The translations under genes were made by a program, and so were the position numbers. From Clostridia bacterium (GTDB lineage: Bacteria > Bacillota > Clostridia > UBA1381), in assembly GCA_017415105.1 (NCBI GenBank), contig JAFQJD010000003.1:62001-126000 (forward strand): a DNA stretch of 64,000 nucleotides, written 5' to 3'. The notes beneath the pieces were generated by a model. It saw nothing but the letters and a program-made list of their open reading frames with translations, did no database searches and had not been told where the DNA came from. Shown here in pieces: positions 23,676-37,018 of this stretch. How positions within the stretch are numbered: position 1 is the stretch's first letter; each line of letters opens with the position of its first letter.

Positions 23676-24530
23676 TTAGAATACCTCTATTTCGCTTATT
23701 GCTATATCCTGCCAGTCGCCATAGTAGCTGTCAAGGACTGTAATTGATATGTAGTCTGTGTATACAGGCTCATCAAGCTTAAAGCTGAGCATTGCACGGT
23801 AGTTGTCAATACCGAATGTAACTTCCTTTTCACCGCCACGGTATGATATTCTTGCACGTGTGATACGGCGGTTTCTTGTGTATGTCTTTTCAGACTTACA
23901 GTAACCGTTTGTCATACGTATTCCCGTAACGTACTGGTCGTTATGTGCATTAAGAGTTATGGTCGGGATAGACTCAATATTTCTGTCGGGTGTCCATGCT
24001 GTACGCATATCGCCATCCACTGCATATTCAGGATAATAATACACAATTTCACCCGTTGAGCTGTCCTTATCATGTCCGCGTGTACTTGATGCTACAACCC
24101 AGTCAAACTGCGGCGGTGCCGGCGTCGGCGTTTCCACTGCAACCTCGGCGGGCTGTACCGAATACTCTTCATTATCATTATCGTTTCCGCCAAACAAGGC
24201 ATACGCACCTATTCCTACCGCAATTGCAACAAGCACTGCCAGAATTATTATAAGAACTGTCACAGTGGTGTTCTTCTCCTTTTGCGGCTGTGGCTGATAC
24301 ACAGGCGGTACCGGAGTATGAGCCGGTGTCGGCTGTGGTGCCGGAGCCGGTTCGGGCTCTCTTGTCCGCTTTCCGCAACCCGGACAGAACACATCACTTT
24401 CAAAGATTTCCATTCCGCAGTTCTGGCAGAATGTTCCGTTTTTCATATTTTCCATTTTCTGCTCTGCACCGCATACCGGACAGAACTTGTCACCTGCACC
24501 CAACTGGGCACCGCATTTTTCACAATTCAT
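23676..24530 (-). CDS. Zinc-ribbon membrane protein with C-terminal discoidin-like domain
   Basis: 284 residues from the ATG at 24530 (AAAGGGTGG upstream). Two N-terminal zinc ribbons (CEKCG...CPVCG and CQNCG...CPGCG, residues 3-52), a Pro-rich stretch, one membrane segment near 90-112 (VLIIILAVLVAIAVGIGAYA), a low-complexity linker, and a C-terminal domain of about 145 residues (VVASSTRGHDKDSSTG..., AVDGDMRTAWTPD). That pattern matches the discoidin/NADase-type glycan-binding fold found in Firmicutes surface proteins. The ribbons should be cytoplasmic and the glycan-binding domain outside. Specificity unknown. Confidence 0.82.
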   Translation of the reverse strand: MNCEKCGAQLGAGDKFCPVCGAEQKMENMKNGTFCQNCGMEIFESDVFCPGCGKRTREPEPAPAPQPTPAHTPVPPVYQPQPQKEKNTTVTVLIIILAVLVAIAVGIGAYALFGGNDNDNEEYSVQPAEVAVETPTPAPPQFDWVVASSTRGHDKDSSTGEIVYYYPEYAVDGDMRTAWTPDRNIESIPTITLNAHNDQYVTGIRMTNGYCKSEKTYTRNRRITRARISYRGGEKEVTFGIDNYRAMLSFKLDEPVYTDYISITVLDSYYGDWQDIAISEIEVF

Positions 24531-24562
24531 AAAAACCACCCTTTATAGTTTAATATATTTAC

Positions 24563-30703: not shown

Positions 30704-30736
30704 AAAAAAATCGCAGTCGATGACTGCGATTTTTTA
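30704..30736 (-). terminator. Terminator of the 1097-residue SLH gene (recurrent hairpin, copy A)
   Basis: Stem ATCGCAGTC (30710-30718), loop GAT, GACTGCGAT (30722-30730), with A and T tracts on the two sides extending the stem. The same core occurs at 36171-36187 and 36994-37014. Confidence 0.9.
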
Positions 30737-34190: not shown

Positions 34191-35126
34191 TTACTGCCCA
34201 TAACCCCCTTTCTTTTCAATTCCGCTCTCTATCCCCGATTGACGTTCCAATATACTTACTCGTCTGAAGCACTGGTCTTTCATTCGATCCATCGTATCGT
34301 CCAAAGACACTATTGCACTATAATAAGCATCATAAATCGGTTTCACATTATCGGCTGTCAACTCTTTTGATTTATCTCGCAACACACCTTCTTTTGATAA
34401 TGCCAAGATATAGTAAGCGTATCCTATATTGATAGACGGTTGGTCTTCTGACATTTTTACTGTTCTTTCAAGAACAGGTACACATTCCTCATATCTTCCA
34501 TTTTCGAAAAGACTATCCGCATAATTGAGTGCACACTGCGGACATATTTTCAGCGACTCTAAAGCTTCTTTTAATGCTTTTTGGGCTAAATCATGCTTAT
34601 TTAACAATTCATAAAAATCGTGCTCGACCATATATGCACGCTCGTCATTTGGTTTATACTCTTTGTAATCAGAAATTAATTTTTCTATCTCGTCTATAAT
34701 TTCATCTTCTTGTGCCTTACTCTTTGAATACTGAATATAAACCATATGAAAGTCAATAGAAAAATGGAATGCTCTCCAACTCCAAAATCTTCTATCGATT
34801 TTTGCCAGTTTATCATAGTAATACGGACTTATTTCTGATAATGCCCGACATTTCAGTCCGTATTCCAATAAATCCGCAAGAATATCTGTCGATTTAGGAT
34901 ATCTTTTTAGTCCATGCTCCAACAAAAATACTGCGTTGTCATAATCATCCATCCTAACCAACCCCACCGAAGCATTATGATAATCATCCTCACTTCCGGC
35001 AATAGTTTCTGCATTTATGACATAATCCATTATTTCTTTAATTTTCAAATAATCCTCTTCTGTATATGCTGCAACTATTTTTTGTATTGCCACATTAATC
35101 GATGGAATATATAAAGCCATTTCCAT
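34191..35126 (-). CDS. TPR-like helical repeat protein paired with the TIR-like gene
   Basis: 311 residues from the ATG at 35126 (AAAGG five bases upstream). An earlier ATG at 35171 lacks a site. All-helical, with tetratricopeptide-like segments, for example VGLVRMDDYDNAVFLLEHGL near 60-78 and YADSLFENGRYEECVPVLER near 200-220. A KICPQCALNYADS segment has a CxxC. No signal peptide or membrane segment. It overlaps the TIR-like gene by 32 bases, so the two are probably translationally coupled. I do not recognise the specific family. A regulatory or adaptor role for the TIR-like partner is inference. Confidence 0.72.
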   Translation of the reverse strand: MEMALYIPSINVAIQKIVAAYTEEDYLKIKEIMDYVINAETIAGSEDDYHNASVGLVRMDDYDNAVFLLEHGLKRYPKSTDILADLLEYGLKCRALSEISPYYYDKLAKIDRRFWSWRAFHFSIDFHMVYIQYSKSKAQEDEIIDEIEKLISDYKEYKPNDERAYMVEHDFYELLNKHDLAQKALKEALESLKICPQCALNYADSLFENGRYEECVPVLERTVKMSEDQPSINIGYAYYILALSKEGVLRDKSKELTADNVKPIYDAYYSAIVSLDDTMDRMKDQCFRRVSILERQSGIESGIEKKGGYGQ

Positions 35127-35745
35127 TTTTTCCTTTCTCACGCTCTTTATCTTCTTCAATGCCATTTTCAATCACTTGAAAAATATTCTTATTCATCTGA
35201 GTTTTTGTTGTATCATCTTTTTTACGTTTTGTTTTCACTTTGTTGTTATCAATTTTCGGGCGCTCAACACCGTCAATAGTTTTAACTATTCGATTCACAG
35301 CAGAATTCAATCTTTCCTCTACACTTTCTGCTTTAGGACGTCTTGCGAATTTATAAGTCGCATTGGTCACGCCAAACCAATCTGACATCATTTTTATTTG
35401 ATTATTGAATGGTGCAATACAATATGTACGATTTCGTCCCAAAAATCCAAGGAATAGTCCTAGTTCAAATACAACATTATCTCTTGGTGCATAACGAACT
35501 TGACCTCTGAACTCGATTTTGTCATCAGGTGTCATTAACATTATTGCATAGCCTTCATTATTTTTTAATTCACATGCTTTTTTATATAAACTTTCAATGG
35601 TTGTCTTTCCTACAGGAAACACGCCATCATCATTCCATAAAATACATCGAATATTATATTTCTGCAACCGTTTGTTCAAAAGTTCTTTTAATTTTTGTGC
35701 ATAAACTAATCCTTCTCCTGAACATCCTATAAATACTTCTTTCAT
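35095..35745 (-). CDS. TIR-like (CAP12/Pycsar-type) predicted nucleotide-binding protein
   Basis: 216 residues. Residues 1-150 match the TIR-like domain known from CAP12/Pycsar effectors and stand-alone nucleotide-binding proteins: KEVFIGCSGEGLVYAQKL at the start, VFPVGKTTIESL near 43, AIMLMTPDDK near 67-76, and ARPRQN-like RYAPRDNVVFELGLFLGFLG near 84-103, where the Glu of VFELG is the probable NADase residue. The C-terminal 60 residues are Lys-rich and probably disordered. A strong promoter stands upstream. No cyclase gene is in the window, so a CBASS or Pycsar assignment is not supported; a defence role is inference from the domain. Confidence 0.8.
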   Translation of the reverse strand: MKEVFIGCSGEGLVYAQKLKELLNKRLQKYNIRCILWNDDGVFPVGKTTIESLYKKACELKNNEGYAIMLMTPDDKIEFRGQVRYAPRDNVVFELGLFLGFLGRNRTYCIAPFNNQIKMMSDWFGVTNATYKFARRPKAESVEERLNSAVNRIVKTIDGVERPKIDNNKVKTKRKKDDTTKTQMNKNIFQVIENGIEEDKEREKGKNGNGFIYSID

Positions 35746-35806
35746 TCCTTTGTATCTCCCCCTTTCTTCCGTTCATAAAACTAAAACCCCCCTCCTGTCA
35801 AATATT

Positions 35807-35835
35807 AGTATACCATAGTATTTTTATTTTGTCAA
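35807..35835 (-). promoter_or_regulatory. Sigma-A promoter of the TIR-like/TPR-like operon
   Basis: Minus strand perfect TTGACA (35835-35830), 17 bases, TATACT (35812-35807), about 62 bases before the TIR-like start. The word TAGTAT recurs three times here (near 35806, 35816 and 35850), between the promoter and the divergent XRE gene, so the XRE protein may bind it. Confidence 0.82.
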
Positions 35836-35885: not shown

Positions 35886-36182
35886 ATGTTAAACGAACAA
35901 ATAAAAAAACTCCGCACAGCGTGCGGAATTACACAGGTACAGCTTGCAAAATCGCTCGGTGTTACGAAGCAAAGTGTGTCCAACTGGGAGAATGATAATA
36001 TACAACCGTCGATTGATATGTTGATACGCCTTGCAGAGTTTTTTCAGGTTTCTACAGACTATATGCTTGGGCTTGATACCAAAGAGACAATTGACGTTAC
36101 AGAACTCACCAACGAAGAAATCGCTCATATTAGATTCATCATTTCAGATATTACAAGCAAACAAAAAAACCGCAGTCGATGA
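35886..36182 (+). CDS. XRE-family HTH transcriptional regulator
   Basis: 98 residues. An N-terminal Cro/C1 helix-turn-helix (residues about 5-60: GITQVQLAKSLGVTKQSVSN, then SIDMLIRLAEFFQVSTDYML) and a C-terminal helical tail (TIDVTELTNEEIAHIRFI). AAAAGGGGTG precedes the ATG. A perfect TATAAT is at 35845-35850, without a clear -35 box. It diverges from the TIR-like operon and is its natural candidate regulator. Its TGA lies inside the loop of the following terminator, so the last residues are encoded by the stem. Paralogous to the gene at 58513. Confidence 0.9.
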   Translation: MLNEQIKKLRTACGITQVQLAKSLGVTKQSVSNWENDNIQPSIDMLIRLAEFFQVSTDYMLGLDTKETIDVTELTNEEIAHIRFIISDITSKQKNRSR

Positions 36183-36194
36183 CTGCGATTTTAT
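36163..36194. terminator. Terminator between XRE and PIN genes (recurrent hairpin, copy B)
   Basis: CGCAGTC (36171-36177), GAT, GACTGCG (36181-36187), preceded by an A run and followed by TTTTATTTG. The core is identical to copies at 30711 and 36995. The XRE stop codon lies in its loop. Confidence 0.88.
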
Positions 36195-36598
36195 TTGTTT
36201 AGTATCTCTATCATTTCCTTTGGTGTTACAACAAATGCTTTTTTAGGAAAATGCTTCAAGTTTCCGGTCACAAGATATGCATCAACCTCTTTTCGTGCTT
36301 CCATAACGATTTCATAGAAAACTGCATCATCAGGGTCAGGCATATACTCCTCTGTTGGTGTTGAATCAACATAAATTGCTTGCTTTTTCAATTCATTAAT
36401 CAAATTAATAACGTAATCAATTGGAAAATGAAATTTTTTACGGCTTAATACTTCAAGATATTCATTTAGTATTTCTTCATTCACAAGCAAATTTATATTT
36501 CCGACCAACACTTCCTTGAGAACCAATGCCGGCATAGAATCATTTTTCAGCATTGCAGATACTATTACATTGGTATCTATGACTGCAAAATACTTCAT
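36191..36598 (-). CDS. PIN-domain ribonuclease toxin
   Basis: 135 residues. PIN fold with the acidic set Asp in VIDTNVIVSAM (residue 8), Glu in NEEILNEYLEVL near 42-47, Asp in PDPDDAVFYEI near 86-90, and DAYLVTGNLKHF near 105. Members of the putative toxin-antitoxin PIN family cleave RNA. It starts three bases after the antitoxin stop, so expression is coupled. Confidence 0.9.
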   Translation of the reverse strand: MKYFAVIDTNVIVSAMLKNDSMPALVLKEVLVGNINLLVNEEILNEYLEVLSRKKFHFPIDYVINLINELKKQAIYVDSTPTEEYMPDPDDAVFYEIVMEARKEVDAYLVTGNLKHFPKKAFVVTPKEMIEILNK

Positions 36599-36601
36599 TT
36601 C

Positions 36602-36907
36602 TTAACTCCTCGCTCTGCGTTCCTTTCTGTATGCTGAAATCTCATTGTTAATGTCATCAAGGGACATTTCAGCCACTCCGTTTTCTGATGCACTTTTATT
36701 TATCTCATCCATAAATTCCAATGCTTTTGTTGCACTGTAATTTTCTTTAGGAAGAACCATACTGAATGGTATGCCGTTAACTGTTACAGACCTTTTAAGA
36801 AACATTCTCATTGCTGTAGAAAGGTCAATTCCCAGTTTCTCATATAAAGCTGTTGCTTCATTTTTTAAATCATCATCAATTCTGAATTGTACAATAGAAG
36901 TTGCCAT
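36602..36907 (-). CDS. RelB/DinJ-type ribbon-helix-helix antitoxin
   Basis: 101 residues. N-terminal ribbon-helix-helix: SIVQFRIDDDLKNEATALYE, then GIDLSTAMRMFLKRSV, typical of RelB/DinJ antitoxins. The C-terminal half is charged and should neutralise the toxin. GGAGGA lies upstream of the ATG. The family usually pairs with RelE/YafQ toxins, but here the partner is a PIN nuclease. Confidence 0.9.
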   Translation of the reverse strand: MATSIVQFRIDDDLKNEATALYEKLGIDLSTAMRMFLKRSVTVNGIPFSMVLPKENYSATKALEFMDEINKSASENGVAEMSLDDINNEISAYRKERRARS

Positions 36908-36986: not shown

Positions 36987-37018
36987 ACAAAAAATCGCAG
37001 TCGATGACTGCGATTTTT
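36987..37018 (-). terminator. Terminator of the ribosomal super-operon (recurrent hairpin, copy C)
   Basis: ATCGCAGTC (36994-37002), GAT, GACTGCGAT (37006-37014), with A and T tracts. It lies 11 bases past the rplQ stop and ends the alpha operon. Confidence 0.9.

Follow-up and report, generated by a model that had tools for sequence, protein, structure and literature searches.

An overlapping pair of TIR and TPR genes in a Clostridia genome that looks like an undescribed two-gene defence module

The window analysed here is a 64,000-nucleotide stretch of contig JAFQJD010000003.1 from a Clostridia bacterium (assembly GCA_017415105.1). On its reverse strand, a gene for a CAP12/PycTIR-type TIR-domain protein (35095..35745) overlaps a TPR-repeat gene (34191..35126), and the pair looks like an undescribed two-gene defence module. 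We give about an even chance to the reading that it is a compact accessory immune module, in which an NAD+-cleaving TIR enzyme (NADase) is the effector, the TPR protein is the sensor or adaptor that holds and switches it, and the enzyme is exchangeable. This reading rests on the gene pair and its protein families, its recurrence with sister TPR proteins, the presence of a different partner enzyme in a relative, and catalytic residues identified by alignment. From these we infer that the two proteins bind each other, that the TIR protein cleaves NAD+, that a ligand is sensed and that phage are resisted. A first-pass annotation had proposed a module of this kind, with the TPR-like protein as regulator or sensor, and its interpretation as a whole is partly supported. 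Both reading frames and their overlap were as it had described, and so were the helical partner, the promoter with its divergent regulator, the lysine-rich TIR tail and, among the 17 window proteins scanned, the lack of a cyclase.

The TIR protein has 216 residues from an ATG start. PF10137, at residues 4-131, is its sole domain above cut-off (E 3.7e-25; 88.7 bits, cut-off 24.7), and the profile scan found no nucleotide-sensor domain, STING or similar, fused to it in the 216 residues. In a sequence alignment, W37, F43 and E94 fall opposite W34, F39 and E86 of the solved Cap12, residues described as having roles at the NADase site (PMC12421889). A structure model of middling confidence has a predicted TIR fold, with Cap12 (9lmq) as the best match in a structure comparison. 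The glutamate that the first-pass annotation had made decisive is therefore where a catalytic TIR fold would have it, and the model agrees with the sequence evidence while leaving our weighting of the readings unchanged. The C-terminal tail (residues 159-216; 35095..35271, reverse strand) is basic, with 11 lysines and 3 arginines in 58 residues and a net charge of +3. It carries no known sensor domain and is predicted to be disordered, the predicted local distance difference test score (pLDDT) being below 50 for residues 160-216. The tail could possibly serve as a docking tail for the TPR partner.

The TPR gene encodes 311 residues when read from its ATG, which lies within the TIR frame and is preceded by the lead GAGAAAGGAAAAA; read from a TTG, the open frame extends to 35171. 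The overlap between the 3' end of the TIR gene and the 5' end of the TPR gene spans 32 bases (35095..35126). A match to TPR_14 (E 3.7e-10) and an AlphaFold model with 15 helices at a mean pLDDT of 84.9 together give the TPR motifs and the alpha-solenoid fold that define the TPR superfamily.

Searches with the TPR protein led to a family of six, comprising the window protein and those at loci L078, L083, L084, L046 and L113. In a six-sequence database every pair scores E 2.2e-13 or better, and all six carry the signature W-x-W-(R/Q)-x-x-x-F-x-I. L078 is from Oscillospiraceae and the contig of L046/L079 is from Mageeibacillus, both in class Clostridia; G978, G1028 and G1371 were reached as kin of the genome of L078. 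Since the genome samples searched overlap, their counts cannot be added up. A single-sequence search of 100 relatives found no counterpart (1 of 101 genomes matched, the window's own). In a class sample, 7 of 391 genomes matched, two of them family-wide: the window's own and G365 (27% identity). The other five matches covered short stretches of 72 to 142 residues and were left out of the family. A further sample gave 28 matching genomes of 398, of which only the window's own matched family-wide and the rest were left out, and another gave 4 of 212, comprising G841 and, at 19 to 28 bits, three partial matches; these too were not taken into the family. When the genome_contigs collection, described as spanning 84,980 species, was scanned with a pattern, 58 pattern matches came up and two loci were confirmed, L079 (the same as G365) and L078, the latter 40% identical to the window protein across the best segment. 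Profile searches then covered 300 genomes (three matched, one being that of L078, giving two further members), 92 genomes (two matched, one already known, giving one more) and another 92 (one matched, that of L078). It should also be noted that L026 (G177:C54:1059-1484), 27% identical to TPR residues 56-197 and interrupted by four in-frame stops, is perhaps a decayed family member.

At L078, the TPR gene is directly preceded by a gene for a divergent PF10137 protein of 195 residues (E 3.7e-10, 40.3 bits, over the cut-off); the two genes share a strand and follow the window's gene order. Thus the two genes, whose failure to adjoin anywhere else would have undone the first-pass proposal, are also neighbours in a second, distant genome. 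The two TIR-paired TPR proteins, about 39% identical, are sisters in a tree of the six (support 99/98); this tree has six rows and long branches, and its remaining order is not settled. By a rough estimate that takes PF10137 in 20 of 391 genomes and assumes 2,500 genes per genome, the chance that one of the five other TPR members comes directly behind a PF10137 gene is about 1e-4. In a tree of the TIR proteins, those of the window and L078 fall in one group with L038, L039 and L041 (88/91), whose inner order is not settled and does not show the two as sisters. Co-inheritance of the pair is therefore argued from the TPR tree and not from the TIR tree, which would accommodate replacement of the TIR gene. 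In a separate observation, L043:6973-8319 encodes a long C-terminal part, helical by eye, behind a PF10137-like domain (E 3.1e-11), and could be a single-gene counterpart.

Other members of the TPR family have other neighbours. At L083, a calcineurin-like phosphoesterase of 496 residues (PF00149, E 1.6e-10) lies 16 bases ahead of the TPR start. Against the PADLOC models it matches 'Effector, Endonuclease' at E 2e-15, a partial match that is strongest over residues 287-349, and the candidate PDC-S60 at E 2.2e-9; no plasmid match to it was found at E<=1e-4. Both partner enzyme types, TIR and phosphoesterase, match PADLOC effector models, and we regard the pair at L083:5549-8045 as a candidate sister module. 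A C-terminal L-E-x-x-S-G-I, picked out post hoc, occurs in all three TPR proteins paired with a TIR or phosphoesterase and in none of the three others. At L046 an AAA ATPase starts immediately after the TPR gene, at L113 the TPR gene comes after a VirD4/TraG-type ATPase, and at L084 the TPR is the C-terminal portion of a 533-residue protein whose N-terminal part shows, by eye, membrane segments and a coiled coil. The stretch L113:17-9954, in which there are also a ThiF-family gene, a Sel1-repeat protein and two proteins lacking a Pfam match, is possibly a ubiquitin-like conflict island. The window TPR protein does not match the PADLOC candidate PDC-M71B, to which the relatives at L083 and L084 show weak matches (E 4.7e-4 and 3.2e-4), so part of the family may already be listed there; no paper on PDC-M71 was found. 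A shared tail motif, N-[IV]-[FL], was spotted by eye in both TIR proteins and the L083 phosphoesterase. It was not significant and is not claimed: among the best ungapped three-way blocks at widths 6-12, 195 to 371 of 1000 shuffles were equally good, and the motif itself was the best in-register block at width 12 only (200 of 1000).

CAP12-type TIR domains are known chiefly as effectors under the control of cyclic nucleotides. No SMODS (CD-NTase) cyclase matched at E<=1 in the window's own assembly (G000), which is 93.87% complete, so that a missed gene is possible; as a control, 5 of 14 genomes matched SMODS, two of them over the cut-off. An adenylate/guanylate-type (Pycsar) cyclase was absent from the 17 window proteins scanned, out of 97 open reading frames of at least 100 residues, and that family was not searched for genome-wide. 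The same 17 proteins held no SIR2 or SLOG domain, and the neighbour of the TIR gene is a TPR gene and not a ThsA-type effector as in Thoeris. Because the other components of CBASS, Pycsar and Thoeris were looked for and not found, we do not file the pair under any of them. Its TIR protein probably works like a CBASS or Pycsar TIR effector at the enzyme level: it shares with the CBASS protein Cap12 (TIR-STING; 9lmq, 7un8) the PF10137 TIR domain and the aligned tryptophan, phenylalanine and glutamate, and with Pycsar PycTIR (8jsj) a TIR kinship of 39.2 bits. However, Cap12 has a fused sensor where the window protein has a TPR protein in second place, and the NCBIfam Cap12 equivalog cut-off of 450 bits is missed (NF050172, 104.1 bits; NF050171, 77.9 bits). 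In PycTIR, the match lies at residues 175-279 of the 311-residue 8jsj chain, whereas the window protein has its TIR domain first and a TPR neighbour.

Systems that use TPR parts are alike in other respects. The TPR-GreA/B-PIN conflict systems, as described in PMC8195603, also combine a constant TPR-bearing part with variable effector enzymes, but there a single polypeptide carries GreA/B and PIN. The window TPR protein is separate and TPR-only, without a GreA/B or PIN match in a profile scan, and the nearby PIN gene is a separate one beside a RelB gene. In the Avs (STAND) sensors, TPR parts are likewise proposed to bind ligand, and the Avs4 TPR domain is reported to bind a phage portal (PMC12847820); unlike Avs, the window pair has no NTPase, and its effector and TPR are separate proteins. 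Swarozyc is a further TIR-like NADase defence whose abstract names no cyclase (PMC13174449), though it has DUF4062 in place of PF10137 and its main text does not mention TPR or tetratricopeptide. The open-access library searched gave no report recognisable as describing a two-gene TIR-TPR system in bacteria; papers beyond it may exist.

We propose that the TIR protein would be a CAP12/PycTIR-type effector that cleaves NAD+ and dispenses with the cyclic-nucleotide sensor domain usual in that type. The TPR superhelix, co-translated with it, would hold it, perhaps via the disordered tail, and would bind a phage or stress ligand. Ligand-bound TPR could then let the TIR domains assemble head to tail, the mode of action given for TIR NADases of this type (PMC12421889). 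The assembled enzyme would deplete NAD+, leading to growth stop or death of the infected cell. The TPR protein would be a chassis with a changeable enzyme, either a TIR or a calcineurin-like phosphoesterase. Bacterial conflict systems have been described as swapping their effectors, TIR and calcineurin-type enzymes among them, while other parts stay constant (PMC7159879, PMC8195603).

The pair sits in a variable region. Ahead of the TIR gene is the promoter TTGACA-17-TATACT (35807..35835, reverse strand), an 11/12 match with a TG before the second hexamer. Promoter-like sites are no commoner than chance in the scanned stretch (13 found, 13.5 expected), though this one ranks second in strength among the 13. 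Divergent from it is a gene for an XRE-type regulator of 98 residues (35886..36182, forward strand; HTH_3, E 1.4e-18). No XRE gene was noticed by eye beside the L078 or L083 pairs, where no profile search was made, and its membership of the module is unproven. Adjoining it at 36191-36907, with a perfect TTGACA-17-TATAAT promoter ahead, are a PIN-domain toxin (PF13470, E 4.1e-16) and a RelB-type antitoxin (TIGR02384, E 1.1e-20). One flank of this block holds rplQ, rpoA and ribosomal genes up to secY; in the other are metabolic genes and the gene of a large SLH-domain protein. The G+C content of the TPR-TIR-XRE stretch is 34.9%, against 43.6% from rplQ to secY. The rpoA locus was found in 10 of 15 other genomes of the genus; all ten were read, and eight extend at least 2.5 kb past rplQ, two being too short to tell. 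By tblastn at E<=0.01, rplQ was present in all ten loci, and none held the TIR, TPR, XRE, PIN, RelB or SLH proteins or three further flank proteins; the PIN/RelB pair is absent beyond rplQ in all eight informative congeners. The block is therefore accessory at the rplQ site; presence elsewhere in relatives' genomes was tested for TPR alone, in the 100 relatives, none of which matched. The palindrome CGCAGTCGATGACTGCG has three exact copies in the window (30712-30728, 36171-36187 and 36996-37012), all within this block, where they bound the SLH-TPR-TIR-XRE stretch and the PIN/RelB cassette; shuffled sequence gives a mean of 0.02 matches at up to 3 mismatches. Two copies in the scanned stretch are terminator-like, and one holds the XRE stop codon. 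It occurs in 4 of 113 loci compared, all four from the window's own contig, and may mark sites of cassette exchange. About 10 kb from the pair (23676-24539), a zinc-ribbon protein carries an F5/8-type 'NAD glycohydrolase translocation' domain (PF25302, E 3.7e-16).

Several findings weigh against the immune-module reading. Only two genomes were seen to carry the TIR-TPR pair. In the class sample, PF10137 matched 20 of 391 genomes (18 over the cut-off), and the 19 loci outside the window's genome were fetched with their flanks, the TIR proteins being read out for 16. None of the 19, when searched with a TPR profile built from three members, had a family member in the flanks (best E 0.44); the profile's sole match was L046, itself one of the three and fetched as a TPR locus. 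A TPR partner is therefore a speciality of a few TIR genes. Co-occurrence in several lineages without a cyclase, which the first-pass annotation had asked for, was not reached: L078 is a second genome and the window's assembly has no SMODS match, but the pair stops at two genomes, and in one relative a phosphoesterase occupies the position of the TIR. The genome-wide cyclase search covered one family in an incomplete assembly, the TIR model is of middling confidence, the tail motif failed its shuffle test, and the ATPase partners at L046 and L113 need not be immune. No defence genes were noticed around the pair beyond the toxin-antitoxin cassette, and no defence island was seen. The phage, plasmid and viral-contig collections held no TPR relatives. 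For the TIR protein, pattern scans of genome_contigs and viral_contigs gave no relative and the phages collection no match at E<=1e-3; phrog_16442, a phage protein family of no assigned function, matches its domain at E 1e-13, and 19 plasmid records match it (at most 75% covered and 41.5% identical), six of the features being annotated as cyclic-nucleotide-binding or PycTIR.

The same evidence bears on three rival explanations. The TPR protein might restrain the TIR as an immunity partner and not as a sensor, in a toxin/antidote-like pair that is toxic unless TPR-held and is kept by addiction, any defence coming from partner loss. The adjacent, co-directional genes, in the same order in both TIR cases and overlapping in the window, would fit this, as would the XRE regulator beside them and the PIN/RelB cassette next door in a region that varies between congeners. 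However, usual antitoxins are smaller than a folded superhelix of 311 residues, and TPR relatives also adjoin ATPases, for which an antidote is not obviously needed; we consider restraint rather unlikely. Those AAA and VirD4-type ATPase contexts would instead suit a family of general enzyme adaptors, with the pair serving housekeeping or signalling, for example NAD+-derived signalling; that no defence genes were noticed nearby and no TPR relatives found in phages or plasmids points the same way. We judge this unlikely: patchy presence (apart from its own, one genome in the class sample of 391 matched family-wide), the variable site and low G+C content mark an accessory gene, and both partner enzyme types match PADLOC effector models. 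Finally, kinship with Cap12 and PycTIR could mean an orphan CBASS/Pycsar-type effector that answers the nucleotide signal of an unlinked enzyme, with the TPR protein incidental or a chaperone. This seems very improbable given that the TIR protein lacks a sensor domain, that SMODS, the one cyclase family searched for genome-wide, has no match at E<=1 in the 93.87% complete assembly, and that another member of the TPR family also follows a PF10137 gene.

Returning to the immune-module reading, a sensor-less CAP12-type TIR joined to a TPR protein whose cousin adjoins a different enzyme of defence type hints that proteins could control these same effectors through direct sensing. More tentatively, and short of calling it probable, the pair may belong to an undescribed modular immune family of Clostridia, in which the constant TPR sensor with its W-x-W-(R/Q)-x-x-x-F-x-I signature takes exchangeable, separate neighbour enzymes (TIR NADase, calcineurin-like phosphoesterase, perhaps ATPases) and runs CBASS-type effectors by direct protein contact without a cyclic nucleotide. 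If true, NAD+ depletion would gain a further route that needs no cyclase, and the small, easily cloned pair would offer a means of studying how a solenoid switches a TIR enzyme.
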